Assembly (NCBI GenBank): GCA_016214035.1
Contig: JACRPF010000006.1
Coordinates: forward strand, 62,001 to 126,000
From: Spirochaetota bacterium
GTDB taxonomy: Bacteria; Spirochaetota; Brachyspiria; Brachyspirales; JACRPF01
Reading direction: 5' to 3'
Length of the DNA: 64,000 nucleotides
Shown: positions 29,278 to 53,131 of the stretch, one piece after another
Layout: each line of letters starts with the position of its first letter
Numbering within the stretch: position 1 is the first letter of the stretch
The notes under the pieces: model-generated
What the model was told of the DNA's origin: nothing
What the model saw: the letters and a program-made list of their open reading frames with translations, nothing else
Databases searched by the model: none
Position numbers and translations under genes: made by a program

Positions 29278-31149
29278 CTATGCCAAAAGTCTTCTGTTAC
29301 GATGCGTCAGCGGTATTGATCCGATGACACAGGACAGTGAATGCGCCGTGCCCCAGGAGTCCAATTCCTTCGCGGCGATGATGCGCATATACTGTGTCAT
29401 GTCCTCGCTTACCGGCGGCGTGCCCTCACCCGACGATGATACCTTCATCACGAGCGTATGCTGAAACGATGCATCACTGAGTACTTTGGTGACAGTATCT
29501 GCAACCGCCGCGCGTACCTCTTTCTTCTTCCGGCCGATTGTAAGCAGGGCCATAAGCGCATGCGAGCAGTCCTGGAACACTTCCGCCCGTTCTTTGAGCA
29601 ATGCCGCGATATCGGCGACACTGTCGGCATCGGCAAATTTCCCGAGCAGATGCAGAGCGCCGTAGATGCGTTTCTGATTATTGCTCCGTCCCGTTTCCGG
29701 CTGATAGTCGTCACGTGATGAGACTATCTCACGGAGTACCGGAAGCGCCGCCCGGTCGCCGAGAAGCCCGAGTGCAAGCGCGCTGTTGCGCCGCCGGTGT
29801 TCGTCACCGTCGGTAAGCCATTGCCGGAGTTCGCGCTTCATCTCATTGCCGAGGAGATACGCGCCCCAGACGGCTTCGCCCGGCTTGTTCGTTGCCAATG
29901 CCTCATATATCGTTTTGCCGTCACGCGGCCACTCATTCGGTTTATACTGCGCCGCCGGGTCGTAGCACCCCGTCTTCTTCAACTCGGCAATGAGCGTTGC
30001 ATGCGGCACCTGACGCACATCGATATGTTCTTTCAGGGACAGCGAAATCGCCGTTGCGGCAATTTCGCCTGCACGCTGCATTTCCTTCCGCATGCGCACC
30101 GCGGTAGCCATCTCATGGTCCACCGCCATCGCGCGGCACGCCACGAGTATACCCTTCCAGCCTTTCGGAAGAAACGAATCGAGCGGTATGGGTATGTATA
30201 CGGTGCGGCCCCAGAGACTGCCGGCCAGCATCCAGTCCTTTATCATATCGCCTTCGAACGCCCAGTCCTTCGAATGGCTGTCGAAGTTCGAATAAACGAA
30301 AAGTACGGGATCTTTCTCCACATTTCCGTGAATCAGATCGCTGAAGCGCACCGTGCGTTCCCCGACGATAAGTCTGCTTTCGCGCAAACCGATGATCGGC
30401 GATACGAATACCAGCGCATTGCCTTCATTGAACGATGCCGGCAGATGCAGCGCATTGGCGTGTGCAATTGAATCTGAAAAGTCGTCGGGATCCAATGGAT
30501 CGGTATATCCCGCGTCGAAGTTCGACCAGGTGATCGTTACACTGCCGTCCGCTTTTCTGCGAAGAAATCTCGGCGCGCTTGAGAACGGCTGCGGCTCACC
30601 GTCCGATGCGCGGCCGCTCTGAAACGCGCAGCCTGCCATGGCGGCAACATCACCGTTCGCGGTGGCGTCGATGACATAGGGGGCGACGGCATCGTGCATG
30701 CCCGTGTCATCGCGAAAACGAACGCCGCCGACCGTATGTCCTTTGCGGTATACACCGACGACAGCGGCCCCGTACGCAATATCCACCGTTCCGTTGAGAC
30801 ATTCTTTCTCCACAAGATATTTGAATGCCTCCGGACCGTAGACATTGTTCGCCGAGCAGAACGCCTTTACTTTCGCATCAATCTCTTCGTACATACCGCC
30901 GGTGGTACCGTAGTAATAGCAGAACACCGACCCGCCGGTACCCGTACCGCCCACATACGTCTCGCGCTCGATACCGAGCACGCGAAGTCCGCGCCGTGCC
31001 GCAGTGAGCGCCGCATAACATCCGGCGGTGCCGAGCCCCGCAACGATGACATCGTATTCTTTTACCGGAGCCGGTGACGGCTGTTTTTCCTGTACCGATA
31101 TTCCATTCACAAGCGTGTAGAGATTCATTCCGTTTCCTTGTGCTTTCAT
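29278..31149 (-). CDS. FAD-dependent oxidoreductase with HEAT-repeat C-terminus
   Basis: A 623-residue protein. The N-terminal about 440 residues are an FAD_oxidored-type flavoprotein: dinucleotide motif YDVIVAGLGTAGCYAALTAARRGLRVLGIE, then VGGTGTGGSVFCYYYG, and APYVIDATANGDVAAMAG near the flavin. The C-terminal about 150 residues contain helical pairs typical of HEAT/PBS lyase repeats (NSALALGLLGDRAALPVLREIV, GALHLLGKFADADSVADIAALL). No signal peptide is seen. Substrate is unknown; this flavoprotein family is common in carbohydrate-degrading bacteria. Start ATG 31149 is chosen because GGAG lies about 7 nt upstream and it abuts the stop of the partner gene; longer frames overlap that gene. 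Confidence 0.82.
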   Translation of the reverse strand: MKAQGNGMNLYTLVNGISVQEKQPSPAPVKEYDVIVAGLGTAGCYAALTAARRGLRVLGIERETYVGGTGTGGSVFCYYYGTTGGMYEEIDAKVKAFCSANNVYGPEAFKYLVEKECLNGTVDIAYGAAVVGVYRKGHTVGGVRFRDDTGMHDAVAPYVIDATANGDVAAMAGCAFQSGRASDGEPQPFSSAPRFLRRKADGSVTITWSNFDAGYTDPLDPDDFSDSIAHANALHLPASFNEGNALVFVSPIIGLRESRLIVGERTVRFSDLIHGNVEKDPVLFVYSNFDSHSKDWAFEGDMIKDWMLAGSLWGRTVYIPIPLDSFLPKGWKGILVACRAMAVDHEMATAVRMRKEMQRAGEIAATAISLSLKEHIDVRQVPHATLIAELKKTGCYDPAAQYKPNEWPRDGKTIYEALATNKPGEAVWGAYLLGNEMKRELRQWLTDGDEHRRRNSALALGLLGDRAALPVLREIVSSRDDYQPETGRSNNQKRIYGALHLLGKFADADSVADIAALLKERAEVFQDCSHALMALLTIGRKKKEVRAAVADTVTKVLSDASFQHTLVMKVSSSGEGTPPVSEDMTQYMRIIAAKELDSWGTAHSLSCVIGSIPLTHRNRRLLA

Positions 31150-31150
31150 A

Positions 31151-31942
31151 TTAAGCTCCGAACACGCAGCCGGCATCAAAGGCGGCAAGCGCATTATCAT
31201 ATGCTGCGGACGGAAGATGCACCCATCCGTCAGATATCGTTTTGGGGCCTTTCGGCACAGACACATCAAATGTCATGCCTACGGCGGCAAGCGTTGCCAT
31301 TCCCAACCGTGCATCGCGCGCTGCCCATGCTCGGAAAAACGTCTCACGCGCGGCAGGCCATGCTGCATCAACAGGAACAGTGACAGAGAATATACGCTCA
31401 TGACCGAATCGCCCTTCACTGACGGATACACCGTTCGCAGCAGGAATCGATCCATCACATGGAGGACAGCCCAGCAGGGCGCTGACATGTTTTCCGGTAA
31501 ATGTAATACCTTTTCCCGGCGCGCTTCTGCATGCCGATGTCGTATCGATGATGCGTTTCACCGTCACCGGCGTTTTCCCGGAAGCGTTGAACAGTGTTAC
31601 CGCAAAACCGTCGGCACTCGATGTGACATCAAGCACTTCCGTCATAAACGATACCGGCAGATGATCGGTACCGATACGGGCATAGAGCACCGGCATGAGG
31701 CCCGGAATATGCGCCGCGCCGTCTTTGAGAATGTTTCTATCGAGCAATTCCTGTTTAAGTCGTTTGCCTTCATCGCTCTGCGGCGGTGTATCCCATCCCG
31801 TGCCGTAGCGGTATGCATAAAGGAATTCGGGCCCCACCATCGCGGTAGACTCAACGACCAGCGTCTCTTCCCGGTCGCGATAGGCGATGCCGAGACCCGC
31901 AAGCGTTGCGCCGATAACCAACGTGTTGTATGTTGTTTTCAT
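31151..31942 (-). CDS. FAD/NAD(P)-binding-like partner protein
   Basis: A 263-residue protein. Its N-terminus (YNTLVIGATLAGLGIAYRDREETLVVES) has a Rossmann-type start with a relaxed glycine motif, and VKRIIDTTSACRS resembles the second nucleotide-contact region of flavin oxidoreductases. At under half the length of its neighbour it lacks a clear substrate domain, so it may be a reduced oxidoreductase or a subunit of the enzyme encoded one base downstream. GGAG lies 6-8 nt before ATG 31942. Translational coupling to the 623-residue protein is nearly certain from the one-base gap. Confidence 0.65.
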   Translation of the reverse strand: MKTTYNTLVIGATLAGLGIAYRDREETLVVESTAMVGPEFLYAYRYGTGWDTPPQSDEGKRLKQELLDRNILKDGAAHIPGLMPVLYARIGTDHLPVSFMTEVLDVTSSADGFAVTLFNASGKTPVTVKRIIDTTSACRSAPGKGITFTGKHVSALLGCPPCDGSIPAANGVSVSEGRFGHERIFSVTVPVDAAWPAARETFFRAWAARDARLGMATLAAVGMTFDVSVPKGPKTISDGWVHLPSAAYDNALAAFDAGCVFGA

Positions 31943-32063
31943 GGATGCTCCATCGAATAGCGTAGTGTTAATATACCATGGAATCCCGATATTTACTCGT
32001 ATCGTTTTGACAAAAAATGGTACTATGGTGATAGTATGCCGCGTGCGGCGACAGGCGTCCGCG

Positions 32064-32091
32064 TTGATTTGTATTCCCCCGTGTATATGAT
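32064..32091 (+). promoter_or_regulatory. Candidate promoter of the MFS gene
   Basis: TTGATT (32064-32069), 16-nt spacer, TATGAT (32086-32091); short leader with GAGGAGG before ATG 32118. Confidence 0.5.
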
Positions 32092-32117
32092 AATATGCGC
32101 ACACTCGAGGAGGCGCT

Positions 32118-33254
32118 ATGACCATTCTCATCTATATGCTCCCCTTTCTCACCGACGTCTGCATCGGCATTTTCCTGTTCGCATATCCGGTGGCCGCCTC
32201 CAAGGCGGGCGCGACGCCGTTCTTCATCGCAAATATCCCCGTGGTGTTCAGTTTCTGTTATCTGGCCGCATCCTTCGCTCTTGCCCGCGTCAAGCTCTCG
32301 TCGGCCGGATATTACCGCGTACTCATCATCTCCATTCTAGCGATGATGGCGGCCGCCGTCGTGTCATATCTGGTGAAAGGGCCGCTCCTGCTCGTGTATC
32401 TCTACGTCTTCGTCATAGGTTCGTTCTGCGCGCTCTTCTTCGTGAGTTTTCAGGTCATCATGGATATGGTATCGCACCGCCAGCCGCTCTACTGCAATGT
32501 CAGCAACTACAATATCTCATGGAGCCTCGGACTCGGCGCGGGGCCGCTCATATCGGGACTCCTCTACGAATACGATGCGCGCATATCGTTCCTCGTCGCT
32601 GCCGGTCTTTGTCTCACCGTTCTCATACTGCTCTTCGTAGTACGTTCCCTTCATTTGAACGACGCAGCCGTTGCCGTAAAAAAGCCCACACCTGACACGC
32701 CGGACAATAAAGTCCGCTTCGGCTGGGCGCTCATCCTGCTCGGTGCCGCGACCGGTGTTTTTGTCCGCGTTCTGTTCCCCGACTTCGGCTTGAAACAGGG
32801 CTTTTCAACGGCGCAGGCCGGGGCGCTCATCTTCTGCTTTCTCGGAACGCAGGCTGTTCTGTCATTCCTCATGCGTTTCATCTACGAAAAACTCGAACGT
32901 ATCTATATCACCGTGATAGCGGCAGGCTGCGCACTGGCCTCGCTCTGTGTCATCGGATTCGCGCATAGTCTGCCGGCGCTTTTTGCGGCATTCGCCCTGT
33001 TCGGCGTGTTCCAAACGGTATTCTTTTTCTATGCGGTATTCTACGCGCTTTCCAACAGAAAAAACGCATCCCGCAACGTGAGCATCAACGAAGGCATCGT
33101 AGGCGCTGCCGGCATCATCGCGCCGTTCGCGTTCGGATCGCTCGCGACGAAAGCGGGTTATCCGTCAACGTTTGCCGCCGTCGCAGGATTTGTCCTCATC
33201 GTGTTCGTCACCGCATATATTCTGTATCTGCGTTCCGCAAAACACAAAATATAG
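32118..33254 (+). CDS. Major facilitator superfamily transporter
   Basis: A 378-residue inner-membrane protein with about twelve hydrophobic helices in two halves. The linker lies near residues 180-200 (VKKPTPDTPDNKVRFG). The polar residues of the first half (SNYNISWSLGLGAGPLISGLLYEYDARISFL) resemble helix 5 of MFS carriers. No substrate can be named; drug/sugar efflux or uptake families both look like this. GAGGAGG precedes the ATG. The gene diverges from the oxidoreductase pair, so its substrate may be related to theirs, and it ends in a good terminator. Confidence 0.88.
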   Translation: MTILIYMLPFLTDVCIGIFLFAYPVAASKAGATPFFIANIPVVFSFCYLAASFALARVKLSSAGYYRVLIISILAMMAAAVVSYLVKGPLLLVYLYVFVIGSFCALFFVSFQVIMDMVSHRQPLYCNVSNYNISWSLGLGAGPLISGLLYEYDARISFLVAAGLCLTVLILLFVVRSLHLNDAAVAVKKPTPDTPDNKVRFGWALILLGAATGVFVRVLFPDFGLKQGFSTAQAGALIFCFLGTQAVLSFLMRFIYEKLERIYITVIAAGCALASLCVIGFAHSLPALFAAFALFGVFQTVFFFYAVFYALSNRKNASRNVSINEGIVGAAGIIAPFAFGSLATKAGYPSTFAAVAGFVLIVFVTAYILYLRSAKHKI

Positions 33255-33270
33255 TACGCGCAACAAATAA

Positions 33271-33301
33271 AAAAAGCCGAACCCATAGGGTCCGGCTTTT
33301 T
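33271..33301. terminator. Bidirectional terminator
   Basis: AAAAAGCCG-A-ACCC, loop ATA, GGGT-C-CGGCTTTTT: a 13-bp stem with one mismatch and T5 on one strand and a matching A-tract on the other. It separates the convergent MFS and RRM genes. Confidence 0.88.
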
Positions 33302-33317
33302 ATTGGCTTACTAAATT

Positions 33318-33614
33318 CTAGTAACGGCGTCCGCCGCCGCCGCCATGGCTGGGGCGACGATCGTCGGTCTTCGGCTTAGCTTCGTTGACCTTGAGCGCGC
33401 GGCCGTCAACTTCTTTGCCGTCAAGAGCGGCAATAGCTGCTGCTGCTGCTTCATCTCCGTCCATTTCGACGAAGCCGAAACCTTTCGGGCGGCCAGTGTC
33501 GCGGTCAGTGATGATGGCAACGCTGAGTACCGTGCCGTGCTGTGAGAACAGATCCTGGATCTGCTCTTTCGTGGTGTTGTAACTCATGTTACCCACATAA
33601 ATCTTTTTCGCCAT
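33318..33614 (-). CDS. Single-RRM RNA-binding protein with glycine-rich tail
   Basis: A 98-residue protein of the bacterial Rbp type. RNP2 is IYVGNM (residues about 4-9) and RNP1 is KGFGFVEM (about 44-51), with a complete RRM between about 3 and 80. A basic/Gly-rich tail (RRPSHGGGGGRRY) follows. Start ATG 33614 has AAGGA upstream; the frame continues three codons further but without a site. Such proteins in cyanobacteria and other phyla bind RNA and often respond to cold. A predicted 5' leader of about 130 nt supports post-transcriptional control here. Confidence 0.93.
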   Translation of the reverse strand: MAKKIYVGNMSYNTTKEQIQDLFSQHGTVLSVAIITDRDTGRPKGFGFVEMDGDEAAAAAIAALDGKEVDGRALKVNEAKPKTDDRRPSHGGGGGRRY

Positions 33615-33751
33615 GCGAAACATCCTTGGGGGAATTACCCCGGTCTTTAATTTGTAGGTCGTCGAGAATAGATCCGGTTAGGTCGTCGGTCAGATGTTAC
33701 GAACGGCGAAACACTAAAGGAACACATTTCAATCGAAACTACATTGACAAT

Positions 33752-33780
33752 AATGTAGCATATATGTTCGAATTTGTCAA
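33752..33780 (-). promoter_or_regulatory. Promoter of the RRM gene with palindromic -10 region
   Basis: Minus-strand TTGACA (33775-33780), 17-nt spacer, TACATT (33752-33757). The -10 lies in a dyad CTACATT...AATGTAG (33739-33758). Predicted leader of about 130 nt, AT-rich at first, ending with GGGG-TAATT-CCCC beside the ribosome binding site. Confidence 0.65.
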
Positions 33781-33817
33781 TACAAAAACGTTCTTTTTTT
33801 AGAAACCCGAAAATAGG

Positions 33818-35833
33818 CTATTTTCCCTGAATTCGGCGTAATGCCTCGGCGGAATACTGATACGCCGGCGGCATCTTCACATCCTGAGACGCCGACCGCA
33901 TCAACCGCTGCTCATATGCCACCGTCATCTCCCGGTTGAGCGGACGCAGCAGCGCATAGCGGTATTTTTCCAGATATTCCGCCTTCTTCGACGCATCCGT
34001 GGTTACAAACGATTTTACCCGCAGGATACTTGATAACTTCTCATCCATGGCGAGGGAGCGGCGCCAGTTCTTGCTGACGGTCAGATAATCCTGATATCCG
34101 CGGGAAAGATAGAACGGGGTAAACTCGTCTCTGAGCTTATCGTACGATATCTGCCCCACCCAGAAAAGCGCATACATCTGCTGCCATTTGATTATGGATT
34201 CTCCGCCGATCTGGAAATTCATACCGGGGACAACACCGTCCACGTGCGGTGAAAAACCTTTTAATATGCCCACCGCCGGTACCCCTCCGACGATATTGGG
34301 ATTCCATCCGATCATGTCATTTAATTTTATATTATTGTCCTTTGCCGCCATGAACAGCAGAAAATCGATGGCCGCTGTTCTTCGCTCGGGGGCGTTTTCC
34401 GGGCTTGCGCAGGCGAAACGGAAACTTGATGTCGGGTCCTCATACGCCGGGCCCTCAAAATGTTTAAAGAGTTCGGGGCTGTCTTTTGACGGGTACGGGA
34501 AATCCATGACGCCGACCTCAAAGCCGTTGTCAGCAGCCTGCCGTTCAAGCATACCGGCATCCCAGGTTCCGGTGGGCATGAACACCGAACGCTGCTGAAC
34601 GAAATACATGGCCGCATCATCCCGGTTCAAACCCGAAAACCCCGGCACCGACTGGCGGCAATAGTTCGATACAATCTCGAACTTTGCCCGGTACGGCGCA
34701 TAATCCATCGTTATCGCTCCGCTTTTCATGCCGGCATACTGCTCCACCACGTTCACAATACAGTCATGGTCGTAATCAATCTCATTACGTGCCTTTGACG
34801 TCACCACGTTGAACAGATTTCCCTCGACCATGTTCATGTGATACTTTGAGTTCGCGATGGGAACCAGATTATTGAGTTTCTGCACCGTTGCATCGATCGC
34901 CCGTGTATGTTCCTCAATTTTTGCGGCCGCATCGGCAGCACGTACCGTGTCGCCTTTCGCCGCGTATCCGTTACGGGCGGCGGCAAGCGATGCGATTGCA
35001 TTGCTGTGTCCGGTGATCAGCCCCTTCGTTTTCGTATCGAAATATTTATACTGTTTAATCTTTTCGCACACCGCCATGAATTGCGCAAAATCCTTCGGCG
35101 GTTCGGTGCTGCCGGTGGCCTGGCGCAGCAGTGTCTTGTTGTAAAACATACGCGTAATGTGAAGCGTAAGCCCGATGGCCATGTATTCCTGCAGTTCGGG
35201 AATATAGCAGCTGCGAAGACCGTCCTTCATCGTATCGCGCAGCGACGTATTTGAGAATTCATTGATGCGGTTATAGGGATTCGGATTCATCACATATTCG
35301 GTCAGCGGCGTAAAATAGCGCACGTAATATGATATCAGAAGATTATACGCCACCATGCCGTCGCGCATGAGATCCGCCGGCGTCCCCCCCACCATCTGCG
35401 TTGTAAACCACTGCCCGTACGTTGATTCGGGAATAGCTTCCTGAACGATACGGATATTCGGATGAAGCTTGCGGTACTCTTTCGCCATATAATTCAGTCC
35501 GTCACGCGCCCCGGGTTCGAGGCTCCAGTGAGCCACCCGCACCGTTACGATACGGTTCTTCGCGTCATGCGGAAGCCGTATCTTCATACCGACGTCGGGT
35601 TTGTCCCGCTCCTGAACATCGGGATAATTCGCCTCACAGATCTTACGCACCGTCGTCTGATACATAGAGGCAATCCGCTCAAGCGTATCGCCCTGCTGTA
35701 CCACATACACTTCCTCGCCCGCATTGCTCGTATTCATATAGACAAGGATTGCCGAGACAATAAATGCCGCGACGATAATGATGACACCGAAGTAGTTCCT
35801 GACACCAGAGAGAAGGTCTTTGAGTACCGGCAT
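33818..35833 (-). CDS. Membrane-anchored LysM / ABC-type solute-binding protein fusion
   Basis: A 671-residue protein. Start ATG 35833 has GGAGG upstream. A single uncleaved-looking helix (VIIIVAAFIVSAILVYM, residues about 18-36) anchors it. Next comes a LysM module (about 42-90: YVVQQGDTLERIASMYQTTVRKICEANYP...GMKIRLP), which in known proteins binds peptidoglycan. The rest (about 100-600) resembles family 1 sugar-binding lipoproteins (GLNYMAKEYRKLHPNIRIVQEAIPESTYGQWFTTQMVGGTPADLM, FMPTGTWDAGML, FDFPYPSKDSPE-like region). No ABC permease or ATPase is adjacent. The combination suggests a wall-anchored binding protein or sensor. A TATACT -10 precedes the gene without a good -35. Confidence 0.8.
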   Translation of the reverse strand: MPVLKDLLSGVRNYFGVIIIVAAFIVSAILVYMNTSNAGEEVYVVQQGDTLERIASMYQTTVRKICEANYPDVQERDKPDVGMKIRLPHDAKNRIVTVRVAHWSLEPGARDGLNYMAKEYRKLHPNIRIVQEAIPESTYGQWFTTQMVGGTPADLMRDGMVAYNLLISYYVRYFTPLTEYVMNPNPYNRINEFSNTSLRDTMKDGLRSCYIPELQEYMAIGLTLHITRMFYNKTLLRQATGSTEPPKDFAQFMAVCEKIKQYKYFDTKTKGLITGHSNAIASLAAARNGYAAKGDTVRAADAAAKIEEHTRAIDATVQKLNNLVPIANSKYHMNMVEGNLFNVVTSKARNEIDYDHDCIVNVVEQYAGMKSGAITMDYAPYRAKFEIVSNYCRQSVPGFSGLNRDDAAMYFVQQRSVFMPTGTWDAGMLERQAADNGFEVGVMDFPYPSKDSPELFKHFEGPAYEDPTSSFRFACASPENAPERRTAAIDFLLFMAAKDNNIKLNDMIGWNPNIVGGVPAVGILKGFSPHVDGVVPGMNFQIGGESIIKWQQMYALFWVGQISYDKLRDEFTPFYLSRGYQDYLTVSKNWRRSLAMDEKLSSILRVKSFVTTDASKKAEYLEKYRYALLRPLNREMTVAYEQRLMRSASQDVKMPPAYQYSAEALRRIQGK

Positions 35834-35951
35834 AACGCCTCCCGGACGCATAATCGTTACGGACAGTATACCAAAATTACGGCGATATCGCTACTCTTAA
35901 AACGGCAGGATGTATACTGATATGCACAAAAGCACCACGGTCGCAGTGAAA

Positions 35952-37094
35952 CTAGAACATCACTTCCAGGCCGGCCGTCAGTTTGTGTGAATAGTATCTG
36001 CCGGGATTATCCAGAATCACAAAACTGGTCCCGAGCAGGAAGCGCGCATACTTTGCCGCTCTGATCCATACCCCGGGGGTGATGACAAGCTCGCTTCGCC
36101 GCGACGATGACACATCCCAGGCGAGCGTACCGGTGACCTCAAGAAACAGTTTATATGCAAGGTCGATGGTGAATGAGTCACCTATCGTAAGCGGGGCTTC
36201 CATATAATATTCTATCGCACAGCCCGCCTCTATGGCGTCATTACGGCGATACTCCCACGGATCGGTGCGTGACCATGTCCAGAAAAGTTTTTTCAGGAGT
36301 TTTTCAATGCCGAAACCTTTGAAATCATAGGTGCTGCCGCCGGTTGCCTGAGGAACCGTTGCGATGAACGCCTCGGGCTGCCAGAATGTCTCGCCCTGCT
36401 CAAGTTCATAGATATAACTGATATTAAAATGCGTCAACAGGTCATCAATCCATTCTTTCGTATAATAGAATGAAACCGTGAACTCACCGAGTCCGCGGGA
36501 GAATGGCGACAGGGTATAATCATTCTCGCCGATAGTCGACGGATCGAATGAACCGACCGTTTGATTGGTGACGTTTATGCTTGTTACATTCGGCAGCCTG
36601 TTCTCAACCTGCGGCTTGCCTACACCGGTAGGAAGCTGCACGGCAACGGCGATATTCCATGCCGCGTTCTGCGCAATATCATCGACCCGCAGACGCGCCT
36701 CAAACGAGGCATCGCAGAAAAAAAAGCCTTTGAACGTATCTTCAAAACGGGCGCCGGGGTTATACGCACGCGCCGCGTCACGCCAGGCGACCAGCGGCAG
36801 TGAAACATCGAATTCCAGAAGCTGTATCATCCCGTACCGTATCTTGATGGGAAGATACAGATATTCGCTGGTCGTATGCTCGCTGGCAACCACCGCGTTG
36901 GTGGTAATCACGCCGACCGTATCGCTTATGTAATTTACGACAAACGATTTTACCAGTGAATACTGTGCAAGATCAGCAGCAACGAGAAAACGGTTCTCCT
37001 CAAGAATGCGTGCGGATTTTACCTTGATAAGGTCTGATGCAAATATACATGCGCCGGCGGCAAAAAAAACTGCGAGCAGGCGCACAAGGCGCAT
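35952..37094 (-). CDS. Predicted outer membrane protein of unknown function
   Basis: A 380-residue protein with a signal peptide (MRLVRLLAVFFAAGACIFA). The mature chain is rich in alternating beta strands and ends in EVMF, the aromatic C-terminus typical of outer-membrane barrels inserted by BAM. Start ATG 37094 is chosen because the signal peptide begins there; the frame extends upstream into rplT. Its position 7 nt after the rplT stop makes co-transcription with the translation cluster likely, although no functional link is known. Family not recognised. Confidence 0.7.
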   Translation of the reverse strand: MRLVRLLAVFFAAGACIFASDLIKVKSARILEENRFLVAADLAQYSLVKSFVVNYISDTVGVITTNAVVASEHTTSEYLYLPIKIRYGMIQLLEFDVSLPLVAWRDAARAYNPGARFEDTFKGFFFCDASFEARLRVDDIAQNAAWNIAVAVQLPTGVGKPQVENRLPNVTSINVTNQTVGSFDPSTIGENDYTLSPFSRGLGEFTVSFYYTKEWIDDLLTHFNISYIYELEQGETFWQPEAFIATVPQATGGSTYDFKGFGIEKLLKKLFWTWSRTDPWEYRRNDAIEAGCAIEYYMEAPLTIGDSFTIDLAYKLFLEVTGTLAWDVSSSRRSELVITPGVWIRAAKYARFLLGTSFVILDNPGRYYSHKLTAGLEVMF

Positions 37095-37101
37095 CGGCTG
37101 A

Positions 37102-37458
37102 TTACCCGAGATGCTTTTGAGCGAGCGCAACCACAGCTTTGAACGCTGCAGCGTCCTCAATCGCGAGATTCGAGAGCATCTTGCGGTTCAGGATGATTCC
37201 GGCCTTCTTCATGCCGTTGATGAGCTTGCTGTATGAAAGTCCGCATTCGCGCGCACCGGCGTTGATGCGTACGTTCCACAGACTCCGGTACATGCTTTTC
37301 TTATCACGCCTGTCGCGGTATGCATACGAAAGTGCGCGCATGACCGCCGGTTTTGCGGTGCGGACCTGCCGCGAACTGTTGCCGTAAAAGCCCTTCGCGC
37401 GCTCCAGTGTTTTTTTTACTCTGCGTTTGCGGACTATGCCGCTTCGTGCCCGTGCCAT
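37102..37458 (-). CDS. rplT: 50S ribosomal protein L20
   Basis: A 118-residue basic ribosomal protein needed early in large-subunit assembly. The start MARARSGIVRKRRVKKTLERAKGFYG and RDRRDKKSMYRSLWNVRINAGARECGLSYSKLINGMKKAGI are typical of the family. It ends the thrS-infC-rpmI-rplT cluster. In many bacteria L20 represses this operon by binding its leader or an infC-rpmI pseudoknot; the 24-nt gap to rpmI leaves little room for that here. Confidence 0.97.
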   Translation of the reverse strand: MARARSGIVRKRRVKKTLERAKGFYGNSSRQVRTAKPAVMRALSYAYRDRRDKKSMYRSLWNVRINAGARECGLSYSKLINGMKKAGIILNRKMLSNLAIEDAAAFKAVVALAQKHLG

Positions 37459-37482
37459 AAATGCTCCTTAATTTTTTGCCGG

Positions 37483-37689
37483 TTAACGGCTGTACGGCAG
37501 AAGACGATCGATCTCGTGCCGGTTTGAATCATGCACCAGCGCCTTCTTGCGGTACTTGCGCTTGGTGTTCGTACCCTTGACCTTACCGAGATTGTGGCGT
37601 CCGCACGCGTGGCGGAATTTCACTTTTCCCGAGCCGGTCACCTTGAAGCGCTTTTTAGCGGCGCTGCTGGACTTCATCTTGTTTTTCAT
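37483..37689 (-). CDS. rpmI: 50S ribosomal protein L35
   Basis: A 68-residue basic protein with the family pattern KMKSSSAAKKRFKVTGSGKVKFRHACGRHNLGKV. The gap of 41 nt to infC is short. Its function is structural, within the large ribosomal subunit. Confidence 0.96.
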   Translation of the reverse strand: MKNKMKSSSAAKKRFKVTGSGKVKFRHACGRHNLGKVKGTNTKRKYRKKALVHDSNRHEIDRLLPYSR

Positions 37690-44529: not shown

Positions 44530-44701
44530 TGATCGACGTCACCGACGACCCGTGCGCGCTTCATGCTGGAAAAAACGACACCCGGATATATACTGCTGTT
44601 ACGACAGACGATAAAGAGCGTATAAGGATAAGTCCGTCTGCAATAGCATAAGGCAAACTGATGAAAAAAGCGTATACTGAATGATATTCCGGAGGTACCC
44701 C

Positions 44702-46732
44702 ATGCACCTGCGCACGTTGCTCGTTATGATCATGCTCGGTCTTCCACTCGCCGGTGAAAACGGGCTTATAGGCCGCTGGCAGTTCAACGACAGCGACGGA
44801 AAAACGGTGAAGGATGCTGTCGCGAACGGGAATGACGGCATCATCAGCGGCGGTAGAATTAAGGACGGATTTCTGCAACTTACCGGCAACGGTTACGTAA
44901 CAATTCATGAAAAAAACACAGATATAAAAAACGGAATGACGATCATTATATGGATCCGGCCTTTGTCAGTGGCAGGTCAGCGCATCATCGGGAAGCCGAA
45001 TCCCAAGCAGCCCACGTGGTCGACACCGATGCCGGGCATGTATTTATCCGACCGGGGCAGTGTTTTTTTCGGCATGTGGACGAAGGACGGCGGTAAATGC
45101 GTTATCGACGGAAACATACAGGTCCGTCAGAAAGCGTGGGTCTGCGTCACCGTCTCATGCGATGACGGCAGGGCGCAACTCTACATCAACGGAGTGGACG
45201 CAGGAAGCGCGCCGTATAAAGGGGCTATCGACATTCCTGATACGCCGCTCTATATCGGCCGGATAAAGGATAATGACAAATACTTCCGCGGCTCCGTCGG
45301 CGAAGTGCGCATGTATAATCGCGGCCTGCCGGAGGGCGACATCATGTCATATTACAACGCAGCGAAAGACGCCTACCCGAACGGGATAGCTGAACCTGAA
45401 CGCCGGAGCATTATGGTCTCGGTGAAACGCAGTCCGAAGGACGAATGGAAGGAATACAGAACCTATACGCTCGATCTCCTCGACGGCTACACACGCGGCG
45501 GAGACTCGGTTGCATACGACCGGTTTGGCGGGCTCGCCGCGAAAAAAGCCGATGCAACAGGGTTCTTTTATGCAAGGAAAAACGGCGACCGCTGGTGGCT
45601 CATTGATCCGGACGGAGGATATTTCTTTCACGCGGGCGTCGTATCGGTGGGTTCCGGCGGCGGTCCTACGGTGAAGGCGAATTTCCCGAAGCGTTTCTCG
45701 TCGAAGGGTGACTGGGCCGATCAGACGGCGGCATTGCTCAAGGAGAACGGATTCAACGGCGCCGGCGCCTGGTCGGACGCGGAGGCGCTCCGCGATGCGA
45801 AGACGAAGATCGTCTATACCATCATCAAGAACTTCATGGTGGATTTCGCCAAAACGAAAAAGCTCAACGCGCCCGGCGTGGGCCATTCCGGTTTCGTCAA
45901 GGACTGCATCCCGGTATTCGATCCGGATTTCGAGACGTTCTGCGACAATTACGCCAAGGTACTTGCCGCCACGAAGGATGAACCGTATCTGCTCGGTATC
46001 TTCTCGGACAATGAGCTCCTCACACCCGAGATAACGAAGTATCTCACGCTCGACCCGAATGATCCCGCGCAGAAGCCGAACTATGATGCCGCGAAACAAT
46101 GGCTCGCCGAACGGACCGGCAAAGCAAATCCCGGCAAGGGCGACATCAACGATGATATACGGAAGGAGTTCATGGGTTTTGCGTTCGGAAAATACTACCG
46201 TACGGTTTCCAAAGCCATTAAAAAATATGACCCCAATCACATCTACCTCGGCTCGAGGCTGCACTCGTCGGAAAAGAACAGCCCGTTCGTCTGGAAGGAA
46301 GCCGGAAAATATGTGGACGTGGTGGCCGTCAATTACTACGGCGTCTGGGGACCGGACCTCGATCAGGTTCGCGACTGGCATGACTGGAGCGGAAAGCCCA
46401 TCATCATCAGCGAGTGGTATGCGAAGGGCGACGACATGGGATTCCCGAACACCACCGGCGCGGGATGGCTCGTGAAGACGCAGACCGACCGCGGACTGTA
46501 CTATCAGCACTACCTACTGGGGCTTCTCGAATCGAAAACCTGTGTGGGCTCGCACTGGTTCAAGTATATGGATAACGACACGAACGACATGAACGCCGAA
46601 CCGTCGAACCGCGACTCGAACAAGGGCATTGTACAGGTGACCTTTGAGCCGTATACGACAGTGCTTGACAGGATGCGCGAACTCAACCGCGAGATTTATC
46701 CGCTCATCGATTTCTTCGACAGAAAAAAATGA
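44702..46732 (+). CDS. Secreted LamG + agarase-like glycoside hydrolase (paralogue 1)
   Basis: A 676-residue secreted enzyme. Start ATG 44702 follows GGAGG and begins a signal peptide (MHLRTLLVMIMLGLPLAGE). Residues about 22-215 are a LamG/concanavalin-like domain (GRWQFNDSDGKTVKDAVANGNDG...GRIKDNDKYFRGSVGEVRMYNRGL). Residues about 270-676 form a TIM-barrel hydrolase with acid/base candidate E438 (GIFSDNEL) and nucleophile candidate E571 (IISEWYAKG), plus NYYGVWGPDLDQVRDWHDWSGKP and SHWFKYMDND. The pattern recalls agarases of the GH50 kind in clan GH-A; the exact family needs a search. A close paralogue follows 35 nt downstream. First of five collinear genes. Confidence 0.82.
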   Translation: MHLRTLLVMIMLGLPLAGENGLIGRWQFNDSDGKTVKDAVANGNDGIISGGRIKDGFLQLTGNGYVTIHEKNTDIKNGMTIIIWIRPLSVAGQRIIGKPNPKQPTWSTPMPGMYLSDRGSVFFGMWTKDGGKCVIDGNIQVRQKAWVCVTVSCDDGRAQLYINGVDAGSAPYKGAIDIPDTPLYIGRIKDNDKYFRGSVGEVRMYNRGLPEGDIMSYYNAAKDAYPNGIAEPERRSIMVSVKRSPKDEWKEYRTYTLDLLDGYTRGGDSVAYDRFGGLAAKKADATGFFYARKNGDRWWLIDPDGGYFFHAGVVSVGSGGGPTVKANFPKRFSSKGDWADQTAALLKENGFNGAGAWSDAEALRDAKTKIVYTIIKNFMVDFAKTKKLNAPGVGHSGFVKDCIPVFDPDFETFCDNYAKVLAATKDEPYLLGIFSDNELLTPEITKYLTLDPNDPAQKPNYDAAKQWLAERTGKANPGKGDINDDIRKEFMGFAFGKYYRTVSKAIKKYDPNHIYLGSRLHSSEKNSPFVWKEAGKYVDVVAVNYYGVWGPDLDQVRDWHDWSGKPIIISEWYAKGDDMGFPNTTGAGWLVKTQTDRGLYYQHYLLGLLESKTCVGSHWFKYMDNDTNDMNAEPSNRDSNKGIVQVTFEPYTTVLDRMRELNREIYPLIDFFDRKK

Positions 46733-46767
46733 GCCGCGTCCTTACATTCTCTAGCGCAGGAGATCAT

Positions 46768-48849
46768 ATGAAACGAACGCTTGTGTATCCGCTGCTGCTG
46801 TCACTGCTTGGTTTTTCACCGCTTACGGCAGCATCACTCACCGACGGACTTGTCGGTCATTGGCAGTTTACCGGCAGCGACGGAAAAACGGTACGAGATC
46901 TTTCACCAAAAGGGAACAGCGGCATTATCACCGCCGGCGAGATACAGCAGGAAAATGCGGCATCATCGCTTGAGTTCAACGGCATGGATACGATGGTGAC
47001 CATCGAGGAACGCACGCCGTTTGCGCTTGCAGATAACGTGACAACCGCCGTCTGGGTGAAGCCGTTCGAGATGAAAAAGTTCTCGCTCATCTTCGGCCGG
47101 CCGCACACGAACGGCGGGTGGTCTACTCCGATGTTCGGCATGTACTTTGACAGTAAAAAGGCGTATTTCGGCACATGGAACGGAAAGGGAGAGAAGGTGC
47201 TTCTCAACAGCGGAGACGAGTTGGAAATAAAAACCTGGGTGCATCTTGCGGCTGCTTACGACGGCTCGAAAGCGGTCTTCTACGTCAACGGAGAGAAAAA
47301 ATCCGAGATGCCCCATTCGGGCGCAATCGGGTCAAACGGCATGCCGTTCTATATCGGACAGCCGCCATGGCGCACGAGTCAGCCGATACGGGCGCGCGTG
47401 GGTGAGCTCAGACTGTATAATCGCGCGCTCTCAGCTGCGGAAATCCGCTCGCTGTTTCAGGCGACTAAAAACGGTTATGATATCACCAAACCCGTACAAA
47501 AAAAGAATTTCAACGACGGCACGGTAATCGTCGAATCCCCGGGAAACACCACGAACGGAATCTGGCAGCGACGTGAAACGAGAACACTCGAGCTGCTTGA
47601 AGGATATGCGGCGAAAGCAGACACAGTTCATGTAAACAAATACGGCGGCTGGACAGACCGTCCGAAAGAAGCGGCGACGGGATTTTTCTATACGAAAAAT
47701 ATAGGCGGTCGCTGGTGGATGTTCGACCCTGACGGATACCGGTTCATACACATCGGCATGAACCAGACGGGACCGGTAAAATCCGCTGAAGCGGCGCTTA
47801 AGACTAAGTTCGGCACAAAGGAAAAATGGGCTGAGGAGACATCGCGTATTTTCTTCGAGAACGGCTTCAACGGGAAAGGCAGCGGCAGCATGAATGAGAT
47901 ACCGCTGTCACGCGCGGTGTCGCGGCCGCTCGCATACACCTGGCTCATGGGATTCATGTCATCGTTCGGTTACAAGAAAAAGCTCACCTACCCAACCGCG
48001 GGACACACCGGATTTTCCAATGACTGCATCCCGGTATTCCATCCGGACTTCGAGGCGCACTGCAATGAATATGCAAAAAGCGTCACCAACTTCGTAAACG
48101 ACCCGTATCTGCTCGGTATATTTTCCGACAACGAACTTCAATGCTCCATTGATCTGCTCGACCGGCATCTCTCGCTCGATGTGAACAACCCGAATCTCAA
48201 ACATGGATACGACGCGGCTGTTGCCTGGCTGAAGGACCGTCTGGGACACACTGACCTGAGCAGATGCACACGGCGGGACCGCATGGAATTCATCACCTTC
48301 GTCTTCGAACGATACTACCGCATCGTTTCGGCAGCATTGAGAAAGTACGACACCAACCATCTCTATATCGGTTCGCGCATCTGTTACAGCACGCAGTTCG
48401 ACAATCCGTTCTTCATGAAAATGACCGCGAAGTACGTCGATGTGATCTCGATCAATTACTACGGCGTCTGGGGACCGGACCTCGACCAGGTGGCACGCTG
48501 GCACGAGTGGAGCGGTAAACCGGTCATCATCACCGAGTGGTACGCGAAGGCTGAGGACACGGGACTTGCGAACACGCACGGCGCCGGATGGCTCGTGCAC
48601 ACACAGAAGGACCGCGCGGCGTACTATCAGCACTATGTGATGGGGCTCCTTGAATCGAAGACCTGCGTTGGCTGGCACTGGTTCAAGTACCAGGACGATC
48701 CCCTGGAATCGACAGCGCTCGATGCCGCGGGCGGCGCCAACAAAGGAATGTTCGACGGGAAGTACGAACCGTATCAGCCGCTGCTCGACTGGGCGCGTGC
48801 GGTGAATCGCGAGGCATATCCGCTTACGGAGTTCTTTGATGCACGATAA
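46768..48849 (+). CDS. Secreted LamG + agarase-like glycoside hydrolase (paralogue 2)
   Basis: A 693-residue secreted enzyme with the same layout as its upstream neighbour: signal peptide (MKRTLVYPLLLSLLGFSPLTAA), LamG domain (about 25-220) and TIM-barrel domain with candidate catalytic residues E456 (GIFSDNEL) and E590 (IITEWYAKA). Shared blocks such as INYYGVWGPDLDQVARWHEWSGKP and LLESKTCVGWHWFKYQDD show recent tandem duplication. The two differ in loops, for example SMNEIPLSRAVSR replacing AWSDAEALRDA, so substrate or bond choice may differ. Start ATG 46768 follows AGGAG; the upstream gene ends 35 nt earlier. Confidence 0.82.
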   Translation: MKRTLVYPLLLSLLGFSPLTAASLTDGLVGHWQFTGSDGKTVRDLSPKGNSGIITAGEIQQENAASSLEFNGMDTMVTIEERTPFALADNVTTAVWVKPFEMKKFSLIFGRPHTNGGWSTPMFGMYFDSKKAYFGTWNGKGEKVLLNSGDELEIKTWVHLAAAYDGSKAVFYVNGEKKSEMPHSGAIGSNGMPFYIGQPPWRTSQPIRARVGELRLYNRALSAAEIRSLFQATKNGYDITKPVQKKNFNDGTVIVESPGNTTNGIWQRRETRTLELLEGYAAKADTVHVNKYGGWTDRPKEAATGFFYTKNIGGRWWMFDPDGYRFIHIGMNQTGPVKSAEAALKTKFGTKEKWAEETSRIFFENGFNGKGSGSMNEIPLSRAVSRPLAYTWLMGFMSSFGYKKKLTYPTAGHTGFSNDCIPVFHPDFEAHCNEYAKSVTNFVNDPYLLGIFSDNELQCSIDLLDRHLSLDVNNPNLKHGYDAAVAWLKDRLGHTDLSRCTRRDRMEFITFVFERYYRIVSAALRKYDTNHLYIGSRICYSTQFDNPFFMKMTAKYVDVISINYYGVWGPDLDQVARWHEWSGKPVIITEWYAKAEDTGLANTHGAGWLVHTQKDRAAYYQHYVMGLLESKTCVGWHWFKYQDDPLESTALDAAGGANKGMFDGKYEPYQPLLDWARAVNREAYPLTEFFDAR

Positions 48850-48876
48850 AAAACATCACGCCGGGGAAGCATCATT

Positions 48877-50625
48877 ATGAAACCGATGCATGCGGTATTT
48901 CAGGCAATCATGCTCATGATCTTCACCGGCGCGATCTTCGCCGCAGATATCGCTCCGGGAATATCGATTGCCGACAACGGCATCATCACGCTCGGCGGAG
49001 TATCGATATTCGCCGTGGTGAGCGAAACGGGAACCGCGCCGACGTTTCAGGCGGACTCGTCGATTGCGCCGGGTCCGGGATTCCCCGCAGCACGTGACGG
49101 TGAAATCGAACTGCGCGGCACTTTCACCGTATCAAAATCGAAACAAAAATTGAGCTTCTCCGAGACGGTGACCAAGAAAGCTGATGGTATTATACTAACC
49201 TACCGCATCGAACAGGTGCCGGCGGAATTTACCGATGTGCGCCTCGCGTTCAGGATGCCGCTGTCATCGGCGGGAAGACCGGTTATAGCCGACGGCAAAC
49301 AGGTGCTGCTTCCACGCGAAGCGAAAGAGTTTCAGATCATGCCTGACACGTCGCTTACGGAGCTCATCCTTCCCGCTGCAGGCGGCAGCGTCCGCGTTAC
49401 CGGGCCGTTCATCGCGTTCATGCATGACCGGCGGAAGACGAAGAACGACTGGTTCGAGGCACGCGCGAAGTTCACCCGCGACGGTACCGCGGCAGCGCTC
49501 ACCGTGACCGTGAATATGATCAATGACACGAACAGCAAAGGAGCTGCTATGAACGACAACAATTACATGGTGGAAGCTACCGCTGCGGTCGGCGACAAAA
49601 AGAAGACCGGTGATAAGAAATACATGCCGCCGCTTGCGGGTAAGAACATCACCGTGAGCGAAAAGAACATGTACTCGCCGGGACGCGACCTCGTATATTA
49701 CGAATCGTCGCGAACGCCGGGGCTCGAGCTCGCGATGCTTGTCACGAAACCGGAGAAGCCGTCTCCCCTTCTCGCCACGACGCACGGCTGGCATATGGAC
49801 ATCGGCGGATTTTCATATCTCGACAAACCGGCCGGCGCATATTTCCGCGTGACGGTCGACATGCGCGGGCGCAAATATTCGCAGGGAAAACAGGACTGCA
49901 ACGGCTATGAACTTCACGATGTCTACGACGCCATCAATTATGCGAAGATACTGTACCGCGAGTACATCACCAATCCCGATGTCATCTACTTCGATGCGGG
50001 AAGCGGCGGCGGCGGGAACGCTTACGGCATCATCGGCAAATTCCCTGACCTCTTTGCGGCCTGCACGGCGCTCTGCGGCATCTCCGATTACGCGTTCTGG
50101 TATTCCAACGACACAAAGGGCGAATTCCGTGACGAGATGGACCCGTGGATAGGCGGTTCTCCCGACGCTAAACCGATGGCGTACCGTTCACGGAGCGGAC
50201 TTACCATGGTCGAGAACCTCATCACACCGCTCTATATCGCGCACGGTGACACGGACCCTCGTGTAACAGTTGACCATGCACGACGGTATGTTGCACGCGC
50301 GAAAGAACTCGGCAAGGAATCACTTGTGACATATTATGAACTTCCCGGCGTAGGCGATGCCGACCACTTCGGCAAGGCCACCAAGGAACAGCGCGATGCC
50401 ATCGGCCGCGGGAGCGAAGAAAATCGGCAGAAGCACCGGACGACGGTCATCATCCCGCGCAAAGGCAGGATGATCGTGTGCGGTTATCTTGTCACCAAAC
50501 AGTTCGCCGTATATCTCGACTCTGTTGACAAAGTGGCGGTGCTTGATTACGACATCGACGCGGATTTATTTACCGTCACCTGCGATGTGCCGTGTACGCA
50601 TGAGATCAAAAAGTTCTTCAAATAG
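48877..50625 (+). CDS. Secreted alpha/beta hydrolase (esterase or peptidase-like)
   Basis: A 582-residue protein with a signal peptide (MKPMHAVFQAIMLMIFTGAIFA). Residues about 25-270 are strand-rich and unassigned. The C-terminal about 290 residues look like an alpha/beta-hydrolase of the prolyl-oligopeptidase or acetylxylan-esterase kind, with candidate triad S376 (DAGSGGGG), D460 (HGDTDPRV) and H497 (DADHFG). The nucleophile elbow is unusual: the residue two before Ser is Ala, not Gly. Family members deacylate polysaccharides or cleave small peptides. In this operon a role in removing ester groups from a polysaccharide is plausible but unproven. It follows the second glycosidase by 27 nt. 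Confidence 0.72.
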   Translation: MKPMHAVFQAIMLMIFTGAIFAADIAPGISIADNGIITLGGVSIFAVVSETGTAPTFQADSSIAPGPGFPAARDGEIELRGTFTVSKSKQKLSFSETVTKKADGIILTYRIEQVPAEFTDVRLAFRMPLSSAGRPVIADGKQVLLPREAKEFQIMPDTSLTELILPAAGGSVRVTGPFIAFMHDRRKTKNDWFEARAKFTRDGTAAALTVTVNMINDTNSKGAAMNDNNYMVEATAAVGDKKKTGDKKYMPPLAGKNITVSEKNMYSPGRDLVYYESSRTPGLELAMLVTKPEKPSPLLATTHGWHMDIGGFSYLDKPAGAYFRVTVDMRGRKYSQGKQDCNGYELHDVYDAINYAKILYREYITNPDVIYFDAGSGGGGNAYGIIGKFPDLFAACTALCGISDYAFWYSNDTKGEFRDEMDPWIGGSPDAKPMAYRSRSGLTMVENLITPLYIAHGDTDPRVTVDHARRYVARAKELGKESLVTYYELPGVGDADHFGKATKEQRDAIGRGSEENRQKHRTTVIIPRKGRMIVCGYLVTKQFAVYLDSVDKVAVLDYDIDADLFTVTCDVPCTHEIKKFFK

Positions 50626-50699
50626 GAATAAGAACATACGCCGCCCGTTTCGACGCGACTGCCGTCCGATATCGCTGACTGTAACATCAGGAGATTCAC

Positions 50700-53105
50700 A
50701 TGAAACTGACCGCGACCCTCTGCGCCGTGATGACTGCGGCATGCATCACCGGAGCGCCGCTCTGCGGCATCACCTACCATGTAGCCGTGAACGGCAGCGA
50801 CGCGAATCCCGGCACAGCGCAGGCGCCGTTTCGCAGCATACAGAAAGGCGCCGATACCGCACAGCCGGGCGACACGGTGTTCGTCCATGAGGGTGTGTAT
50901 CGCGAGCGGGTCTCTCCGCCCCGCGGCGGCGAGTCTGACAGACCTATCGTCTATATGGCCGAACCGGGAAAGAACGTAGTCATCAAAGGATCCGATATCT
51001 GGAAACCGGCATGGGAGAATGACGGCAAGCTTCACTGCGCCGTTCCCGACGAAGCCATGTTCACCGACGACTGCTATCATGACGACAAAAATCCTTTCAG
51101 GGTTGAGATGTCATCAACGCCGTTCGGCCGCGACGGCCGCAGGGAATTCGAACGAAAATTTGTCACCGAGACGAGATTCAAGGACATCGTTTTCACGCTC
51201 GGGCAGGTGTACGTGAACGGCAGGATGTACCGTCAGGTGCCGCTGAAGAACGAAGCGAACGATGAGACCGGGACCTGGTGGTATGATCGCTCCAGCGGAA
51301 AATTATACGTGCATTTCGCCGGCAATCCGTCAACGAAAACCGTGGAGATCTTGACGCGCCGACGCGTCTTTGCACCGCATCGACGCGGACTCGGTTACAT
51401 CCACGTCATCGGCTTCGTGATGGAACACAGCGGCAATAATTACCCTACCAATTTCTGGGAAAAGGAACATCGCGAGTGGCAACAGGCGGGCATTCTCGGG
51501 ACGCGGTCGGGTCATCACTGGCGCATCGAACGCAATGTCTTCCGCCTCGGCATGGTGGGCATCGACGTGGGCTTTGAATCGCTCGCGGACCAATCCCGCG
51601 GCGACATCGAACGCGGCGAGAACGGAAAAAACAGCGAGGGCGCCGTGTTTCATGAGATCGTGAGCAATCACATCGTGGATATCTTCGGCCCGGGCACCGC
51701 CGGTTCAGATGCGCGGGGAATACGGTTCATCGGAAACATCATCGAACGGAATAATACGCTGGGGTTCGCCGGCATGAAGCGCTTCGAGACGGCAGGCATC
51801 AAGCTGCATCGACCGGACAATGCGCGCATCATCGGAAATCTTTTCAGGAGCAACGCCTGCGCCGGTCTCTGGCTTGATCAGGGCTCGGGCACCAACACGA
51901 TCATCGCACGGAACATCTTCATCGGCAACCGTCAGGGCTTCGACCTGGAGATAGGCAATATGTGCGCGGCGTCATGCCTCCTTGCATACAACGTCTTCAT
52001 CGGAAACACGCACGAGGCGGTGAGTTCACGCGAATCCGGCGGGCTTGTGGTCATGAACAACTTCATCGCCGGATCCGAATACGGATACCGTCAATCCGCT
52101 GATGTCAAACGCGATCACGGTAAAAAACCGCCGTGGTCGTGGACCGCGCTCGAACACTGGTGCTACGGCAACATCTTCACCGCCTGCGGTATAGCGGTCG
52201 CCATGCTGCCCCCGGGTTTCAGCAACCGCCCCGACCTCATCGACGGACGGCGGTTTGACGGTAACGTCTACGGCACTGCGGCCGGCATATTTAAGCTCGG
52301 CGGTGAGAAAGAATCAATCGGCTTCGATGTGTGGCGTGAAAAATGGAACGGATACAATAAGGGCAGTGATTGTGAAACGAAAAGCGCCGCGGGAGCGTCG
52401 ATTGACTATGCATACGACGATGCATCGATTACCCTGACCTTGCGCTATGATGCGCAACCCATGTCCGCAGTATATCATCATGAAAAAGTGACAGCAGAAG
52501 TGCTGGGCGGCGCGGAAGGAAATAGTGCCGGCCCGTTCCGCACGCTCACGCGCGGTGAAAACGTATTTCCGCTCTGGAAAGGAGTGCGCCCCCTGGCGGA
52601 ATATGAGCTCCCGTACGGGGGAAGCGAACTTGTTACGTCGCCCGATGACGCATTGCTCTTACCGTCGTTTAACCCGGATGCAGAACTCATCGTAAACGGC
52701 GGCTTCGCGGGGATGGACGGATGGACTGCGATGACCACCGGCGGCGCGAAGGCGTCGTTCAGTGCCGACAAGGTGCTCGCCGTGGTCACCGAGAAAGACG
52801 GCGGCAAGGAATGGGACATCCAGGTAAAGCAGGATAAGATACTCATTGAACGCGGAACGTACGTGTTCTCGTTCAAGGCGCGCGCCGACGCCCCGCGCAG
52901 GATGAAAGCAGCCGTCATCCAGGATGCACTCCCGCAGCCGCAATACTGCGGCATCGTGCCCGACATCACATCTGACTGGAAGGAGCATCGCGGTACATTT
53001 ACGATGAGCGTTCGGCAGACGAACGCACGTGTACAGCTCAGGTTCGCAACGTACGGCACCGCCGCGGTGCAGGTGAGAAACGTTTCGCTGAAACGGATAC
53101 GCTGA
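50700..53105 (+). CDS. Secreted right-handed parallel beta-helix protein (candidate polysaccharide lyase/hydrolase)
   Basis: An 801-residue secreted protein. After a signal peptide (MKLTATLCAVMTAACITGAPLCG) the segment YHVAVNGSDANPGTAQAPFRSIQKGADTAQPGDTVFVHEGVYRE is the typical start of pectate-lyase-like beta-helices (DUF1565/Beta_helix). Repeating short strands (RIIGNLFRSNACAGLWLDQG, TIIARNIFIGNRQGFDLEIGN, NVFIGNTHEAVSSRESGGLVVMNN) mark the coil turns over about residues 240-560. The last about 140 residues (LIVNGGFAGMDGWTAM...RNVSLKRI) resemble a CBM4/9 carbohydrate-binding domain. Catalytic residues are not identifiable by eye. AGGAG precedes ATG 50700. Fourth gene of the degradative operon. 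Confidence 0.78.
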   Translation: MKLTATLCAVMTAACITGAPLCGITYHVAVNGSDANPGTAQAPFRSIQKGADTAQPGDTVFVHEGVYRERVSPPRGGESDRPIVYMAEPGKNVVIKGSDIWKPAWENDGKLHCAVPDEAMFTDDCYHDDKNPFRVEMSSTPFGRDGRREFERKFVTETRFKDIVFTLGQVYVNGRMYRQVPLKNEANDETGTWWYDRSSGKLYVHFAGNPSTKTVEILTRRRVFAPHRRGLGYIHVIGFVMEHSGNNYPTNFWEKEHREWQQAGILGTRSGHHWRIERNVFRLGMVGIDVGFESLADQSRGDIERGENGKNSEGAVFHEIVSNHIVDIFGPGTAGSDARGIRFIGNIIERNNTLGFAGMKRFETAGIKLHRPDNARIIGNLFRSNACAGLWLDQGSGTNTIIARNIFIGNRQGFDLEIGNMCAASCLLAYNVFIGNTHEAVSSRESGGLVVMNNFIAGSEYGYRQSADVKRDHGKKPPWSWTALEHWCYGNIFTACGIAVAMLPPGFSNRPDLIDGRRFDGNVYGTAAGIFKLGGEKESIGFDVWREKWNGYNKGSDCETKSAAGASIDYAYDDASITLTLRYDAQPMSAVYHHEKVTAEVLGGAEGNSAGPFRTLTRGENVFPLWKGVRPLAEYELPYGGSELVTSPDDALLLPSFNPDAELIVNGGFAGMDGWTAMTTGGAKASFSADKVLAVVTEKDGGKEWDIQVKQDKILIERGTYVFSFKARADAPRRMKAAVIQDALPQPQYCGIVPDITSDWKEHRGTFTMSVRQTNARVQLRFATYGTAAVQVRNVSLKRIR

Positions 53106-53131
53106 GATATGTCCTGACCGGGAGGAACGAT

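Follow-up and report, generated by a model that had tools for sequence, protein, structure and literature searches.

A helix-anchored LysM solute-binding protein in a Spirochaetota genome as a candidate tethered receptor of a shared sugar importer

Introduction

Known sugar-binding proteins of the CUT1 type are free or lipid-anchored, and in type I importers generally the solute-binding protein (SBP) closes on its ligand and docks on the permease. The window analyzed here, a 64,000-nucleotide stretch of a Spirochaetota genome, encodes an SBP that departs from this arrangement. The initial annotation had described a membrane helix, a LysM module and an SBP in one chain, with no ABC partner gene adjacent, and had suggested that the arrangement either keeps the binding protein at the peptidoglycan or serves in sensing instead of transport. 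The locus raises the question of what such a receptor does in the absence of its own permease.

Results

The gene and the domains of its product

A single uninterrupted open reading frame spans 33818-35851 on the minus strand, giving 677 aa when the ATG at 35851 is taken as the start. The better start is the one used in the initial annotation, the ATG at 35833, because GGGAGG precedes it at 35843-35838 and most paralogues start at the equivalent position in the alignment. Residue numbers are counted from the ATG at 35851 throughout. The features are as follows:

33818..35833, minus strand: coding sequence of the membrane-anchored LysM SBP, 671 aa long with the supported start and 677 aa with the upstream ATG at 35851
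35838..35843, minus strand: Shine-Dalgarno-like GGGAGG ahead of the ATG at 35833, from sequence
35723..35794, minus strand: N-terminal membrane helix, approximately residues 20-43, from hydrophobicity, alignment and AlphaFold2 model
35570..35707, minus strand: LysM domain, residues 49-94, from Pfam and predicted fold
34088..35554, minus strand: sugar-type SBP body, residues 100-588, from Pfam, model and structure comparison
34877..35053, minus strand: helical-hairpin insert in the SBP, approximately residues 267-325, from alignment, conservation and model
33896..34144, minus strand: long C-terminal helices, residues 570-652, from the model and conserved columns in the alignment
35952..37090, minus strand: secreted protein without family match, upstream on the same strand, approximately 100 bases before the SBP gene

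Over 33200-37600, scans for promoters and terminators returned no more sites than shuffled sequences did (4 vs 4.5 and 5 vs 5.6).

Pfam placed LysM at residues 49-94 (41.9 bits, cut-off 20.9) and SBP_bac_8 at residues 122-516 (55.2 bits, cut-off 27), with SBP_bac_1 also above its cut-off (36.2 bits vs 26). An AlphaFold2 model built with 33 sequences, in an alignment that had no LysM rows, reached a mean pLDDT of 80.5 and a pTM of 0.75. The SBP body was well modelled, 18 of the 22 ten-residue blocks in 371-590 being at a pLDDT of 85 or above, and it is followed by long C-terminal helices at 570-616 and 620-652. Comparison using VIA-align matched it to binding proteins for xylo-, chito-, raffinose- and malto-oligosaccharides at Z scores of 19-21 over 334-368 residues (best 25 rows), the top match having a Z of 21.1 over 349 residues at an rmsd of 4.0. 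These relatives came from the structure search, as a sequence search of the PDB gave weak matches alone (best E 0.0078). The protein thus combines an SBP domain above the curated Pfam cut-offs with the two-lobe fold of oligosaccharide SBPs, and the C-terminal region does match solute-binding proteins as had been supposed. The hairpin insert, modelled at 273-324 with block pLDDT values of 92-96 over 281-320, is the least conserved part of the SBP (mean top-residue share 0.33), yet it was modelled with high confidence.

LysM was at a pLDDT below 50 in the full-length model. Modelled alone, the region adopted the beta-alpha-alpha-beta fold at a pLDDT of 76.4 and its top matches were LysM structures; the modest E-values (best 1.8e-3) are accounted for by the shortness of the domain. 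Both Pfam score and fold accordingly identify a LysM domain, which bears a conserved GDT motif, and the proposed union of helix, LysM and SBP in one chain was borne out by Pfam, the model and the structure matches.

Anchoring and topology

The protein contains one hydrophobic segment, modelled as a helix at 21-43. A lipoprotein was considered and rejected, as there is no cysteine in or directly after the helix and hence no lipobox. Elsewhere in the alignment, row L044 has a cysteine in the helix, after LAF, and a relative lacking LysM (in genome G040, see below) carries AAAC and may have a lipid anchor. Behind its helix the window protein also shows a possible signal-peptidase site, SNA before GEE. 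Cleavage there seems unlikely, because the paralogues do not keep the site, and the helix probably stays uncleaved. The topology would then be N-in and C-out, with LysM and SBP on the periplasmic side. By Pfam and the model, only some 20 residues would be cytoplasmic and no output domain is present. Tethering to peptidoglycan through LysM is plausible, because the domain is recognized by both Pfam and structure and is predicted to be periplasmic.

Genes around the window copy

No ABC permease or ATPase gene was found among the neighbours called, in agreement with the initial annotation. These neighbours comprised an MFS protein, an FAD oxidoreductase, the secreted protein without family match and, named by us from reading of the sequence, an RNA-binding-type protein and rplT/infC/thrS-like ORFs. 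The FAD_oxidored protein carries HEAT repeats and adjoins a 326-aa ORF without Pfam match (window 29278-32131). An FAD-dependent oxidoreductase also adjoins one paralogue, on contig C12 (L028:10102-11463). No glycosidase is a direct neighbour of the window copy. A polysaccharide-degradation cluster lies at 44681-55711, roughly 9-20 kb from the SBP gene, and encodes secreted LamG, S9-type esterase, beta-helix with CBM_4_9 and heparinase II/III/alginate-lyase-like proteins.

The paralogue family

The same fusion was searched for in other genomes. Among 61 genomes searched as relatives, three had a match: that of the window itself (G000), that of a sister genus in the same family (G001, fragmented into 180 contigs) and G040. 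The same three emerged when 392 genomes of the phylum were searched with a profile, considering the best three candidates at most per genome. In G000 ten matching pieces correspond to nine genes, the window gene and eight paralogues, the match on C12 being split in two because that copy has no hairpin insert. G001 has 13 copies (11 full-length, a short one on C66 and one on C91 cut by the contig end) and a remnant on C67 (L046:8856-9305). The 149-aa remnant consists of helix, LysM and C-terminal tail only, as left by an internal deletion. The insert is also missing from the C66 copy and from the LysM-less G040 forms; the surroundings of the C12 and C66 copies have several protein clusters in common, in the same order.

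The order helix-LysM-SBP is common to 21 further copies in the two genomes, 18 of them full length. An assembly or frameshift artefact fusing two genes was rejected on these grounds and can practically be dismissed.

Relatives without LysM

The G040 SBP carries the helix without LysM, and its gene lies in the order ATPase, TPR-type protein, SBP and fused permease. A contig scan with a single protein as query gave 14 pattern stretches and no relative, while an alignment as query gave 30 loci, one of which (L066) is the G040 locus itself. The loci were mostly from Lentisphaerae, Verrucomicrobia, Kiritimatiellae and Planctomycetes. A TPR-type gene lies near the SBP in 24 of them and a permease gene is present in 18, with both permease halves in one chain in 9 of the 18. 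An ATPase sometimes completes these importer operons. The other 12 had no permease in the stretch, although two of these (L050 and L073) end less than 800 bases from the SBP gene.

LysM was absent from all 32 SBPs of the 30 loci, which consist of the helix, a short linker and then the SBP. In the 16 genomes reached via these loci, none of the matches listed starts before model position 87, that is, in the place of LysM. The same was true of the matches listed from a draw of 387 genomes from G395's phylum, of which 25 had a strong match; as the best three candidates at most per genome were considered, a rare exception bearing LysM could be missed. Among the genomes and loci searched the LysM form was thus seen in G000 and G001 only, while the LysM-less relatives (20-41% identity) are helix-anchored. 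The helix anchor is therefore old and ancestral in the SBP family. The architecture is as unusual as originally noted on account of LysM and not of the membrane helix.

Several Opitutaceae/Cephaloticoccus loci (L057, L058, L059, L061, L065 and L075) hold anchored SBPs but no permease in the stretch that was retrieved, and several anchored copies per genome were found in the three genomes of this type that were searched. Permease sharing may have arisen there as well.

One family permease and an unlinked ATPase

Only one fused permease of this SBP family was found in each LysM-bearing genome, on C13 in G000 and on C88 in G001, so that a single paralogue in each has it as a neighbour and eight of the nine G000 copies, the window copy included, have none. 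At both sites a TPR-type gene is followed by the LysM-SBP gene and then the permease gene. The other permease matches in the two genomes were pieces of other permeases at 25-34% identity. The G040 ATPase, of the UgpC kind by NCBIfam, has one unlinked homologue each in G000 (62% identity, C20) and G001 (61%, C122). A permease and an ATPase of the same system are therefore encoded in the window's genome and neither adjoins the window gene.

G000 contains further ABC permeases, namely a complete-looking system on C9 and pairs on C2 and C20 with an SBP domain of their own. This second kind of sugar permease pair was observed at L029:8815-13908 (G000:C2), L030:7868-12973 (G000:C20) and L033:14569-18999 (G001:C100). 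Its large subunit of about 1005 aa has an N-terminal SBP_bac_1 domain fused to MalF-like helices, and the partner of about 688 aa has a big extra region ahead of the MalG-like part.

The partner of the permease differs between the two genomes. In the tree, the permease-linked SBP of G001 (C88) pairs with G000:C4 (support 100/100) and that of G000 (C13) groups with G0C1 and G1C5 (95/94). On this tree the two permease-linked SBPs are not orthologues. G000:C4 has no permease and has kept a TPR-type gene that is 79% identical to that of C88. Synonymous divergence (pS) was 0.618 (0.573-0.662) for the permease pair, 0.609 (0.560-0.663) for the orthologous SBPs C4 and C88, and 0.697 (0.646-0.752) for the SBPs beside the permease, C13 vs C88. 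The simplest reading is that a single permease served both of these SBPs ancestrally. Alternatively, the G000 and G001 lines may have lost different duplicates of the permease, given that the pS intervals of the permease and its adjoining SBPs overlap slightly and are near saturation.

Constraint on the orphan copies

Positions invariant in nine permease-linked, LysM-less relatives numbered 63, a set in which docking residues and ordinary fold residues were not distinguished. Orphan copies keep 52-59 of these (57 in the window protein), compared with 56 and 57 for the paralogues linked to a permease. The lowest orphan value, 52, belongs to the copy cut by a contig end. The dN/dS of pairs of orphan copies was 0.12-0.26, and that of the permease 0.15, all dS values being near-saturated. 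The orphan paralogues are therefore under purifying selection, with no sign of relaxed constraint or decay.

Glycosidases and regulators near the paralogues

Twenty neighbour proteins, ten from each genome, were scanned; they were hand-picked as large direct or close neighbours and are not a random sample. In G000, matches above cut-off included GH16, GH38, 3-keto-disaccharide hydrolase, LamG, beta-helix, DUF6259/GH30C and one AraC-type regulator, which bears a binding-protein domain. Matches to GH99, GH14 and GH72 were below cut-off and one of the ten had no match. Those in G001 included GH28, GH42, GHL6, pectate-lyase-like, CBM and DUF6259, with three of the ten without match and one outer membrane efflux protein. 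Several of the permease-less paralogues have glycoside hydrolases next to them. A cluster of presumably AraC-like proteins, named from reading of the sequence, recurs near several copies.

Discussion

The analysis favours the interpretation that the window protein and its paralogues are tethered oligosaccharide receptors of a CUT1-like importer, and that the set probably shares one fused permease and an unlinked ATPase. The window SBP would be the oligosaccharide receptor of a type I sugar ABC importer, held at the inner membrane by its helix, while LysM, between helix and receptor, probably keeps it near the peptidoglycan and limits roaming of the idle receptor. Each of the nine receptors of G000 would presumably catch a different oligosaccharide released by glycosidases, close, and dock on the single C13 permease encoded elsewhere in the genome, with ATP supplied by the UgpC/MalK-like ATPase on C20. 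Topology, ligand class, permease sharing and peptidoglycan binding are the parts of this interpretation that we infer. The fold and the neighbours of the paralogues suggest a carbohydrate ligand for the window SBP; the difference in partners and the equal constraint speak indirectly for sharing by the orphans. LysM may serve in positioning, in keeping receptors off the pore until they are loaded, or otherwise. A more elaborate form of the proposal is tentative: 9-13 receptors pinned by helix and LysM, one per polysaccharide locus, would all feed one single-chain permease like spokes on a hub, with the LysM layer letting them queue.

The evidence speaks more for a transporter part than for a sensor, in which the tethered SBP would signal the presence of sugar or peptidoglycan fragments to a partner in the membrane without transport. 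A sensor would fit the lack of an adjoining permease at eight of nine G000 copies, the AraC-type regulator with a binding-protein domain and the AraC-like cluster near several copies, and orphan SBPs have been co-opted into other systems elsewhere, according to PMC8938411. However, the 20 or so residues on the cytoplasmic side leave no room for an output domain, and no conserved kinase or chemoreceptor was noticed among the paralogue neighbours. The relatives are parts of ABC importer operons, one such operon holds a paralogue in the same genome, and the orphans keep the residues conserved in linked copies, with constraint not relaxed. A sensory role, one of the suggestions of the initial annotation, is therefore unlikely.

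Delivery to other permeases, such as the C9 system or the C2/C20 pairs, we rate as less probable again. It is favoured by G001:C100, which together with one other copy is closest to the window protein and has a C2/C20-type pair approximately 4.4 kb away on the same strand with AraC-like and GH28 genes between. Yet the large C2-type subunit has its own SBP domain, the flanks of C2 and C20 contain no LysM-SBP gene, and these permeases are 25-34% identical to that of the family. Most doubtful among the functional alternatives are periplasmic capture or scaffold proteins that would gather oligosaccharides for glycosidases and could do without a permease. Clustering with glycosidases, LysM and the poorly conserved helical insert would all suit such a role, but the SBP retains the family-invariant residues of its linked relatives, and ancestrally the operon encodes an importer.

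If the shared-importer interpretation is true, a copy of one receptor gene placed in a glycosidase locus would be enough for the bacterium to use a further sugar, and the permease could stay as it is. Such an importer, with many tethered receptors for one pore, would occur in a lineage rich in polysaccharide enzymes and would offer a clear test of whether the choice of SBP alone sets substrate range. A conserved module of TPR protein, helix-anchored SBP and often a single-chain MalF-MalG-like permease is in addition identified in Lentisphaerae, Verrucomicrobia and Planctomycetes. Titles and abstract openings in the PMC literature searched yielded neither the LysM-SBP fusion nor its 9-13-fold expansion, and no description or family name of the module.

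Relation to known systems

CUT1-type SBPs such as RafE and the xylo-oligosaccharide and chitin-oligosaccharide binding proteins have the fold and the Pfam families SBP_bac_1/SBP_bac_8 in common with the window protein, which in comparison adds the membrane helix, LysM, the extra helical hairpin and the long C-terminal helices. The anchored SBPs of Lentisphaerae, Verrucomicrobia, Kiritimatiellae and Planctomycetes are direct helix-anchored homologues with a TPR gene (24/30 loci), but lack LysM (0/32) and have a permease in 18/30 loci. The role of queued tethered receptors would be comparable to that of SusD-like proteins at the outer membrane of Bacteroidetes. Multitask ATPases such as MsmX/MsmK serve sugar importers to which they are unlinked, as set out in PMC7658222; there the ATPase is shared, whereas in the system proposed for G000 the permease would be shared as well. 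The working mode proposed here, several SBPs per permease, has a parallel among known orphan SBPs.

The use of a common ABC transporter by orphan SBPs was reportedly described by Thomas in 2010 and, for the Cbc transporter, by Chen in 2010. The present receptors differ in being membrane- and probably wall-tethered, in forming a set of 9 to 13 and in belonging to a sugar-type system. The sharing of an importer by orphan SBPs is thus already known, and what appears new relative to the literature searched is the LysM-tethered form and its expansion.
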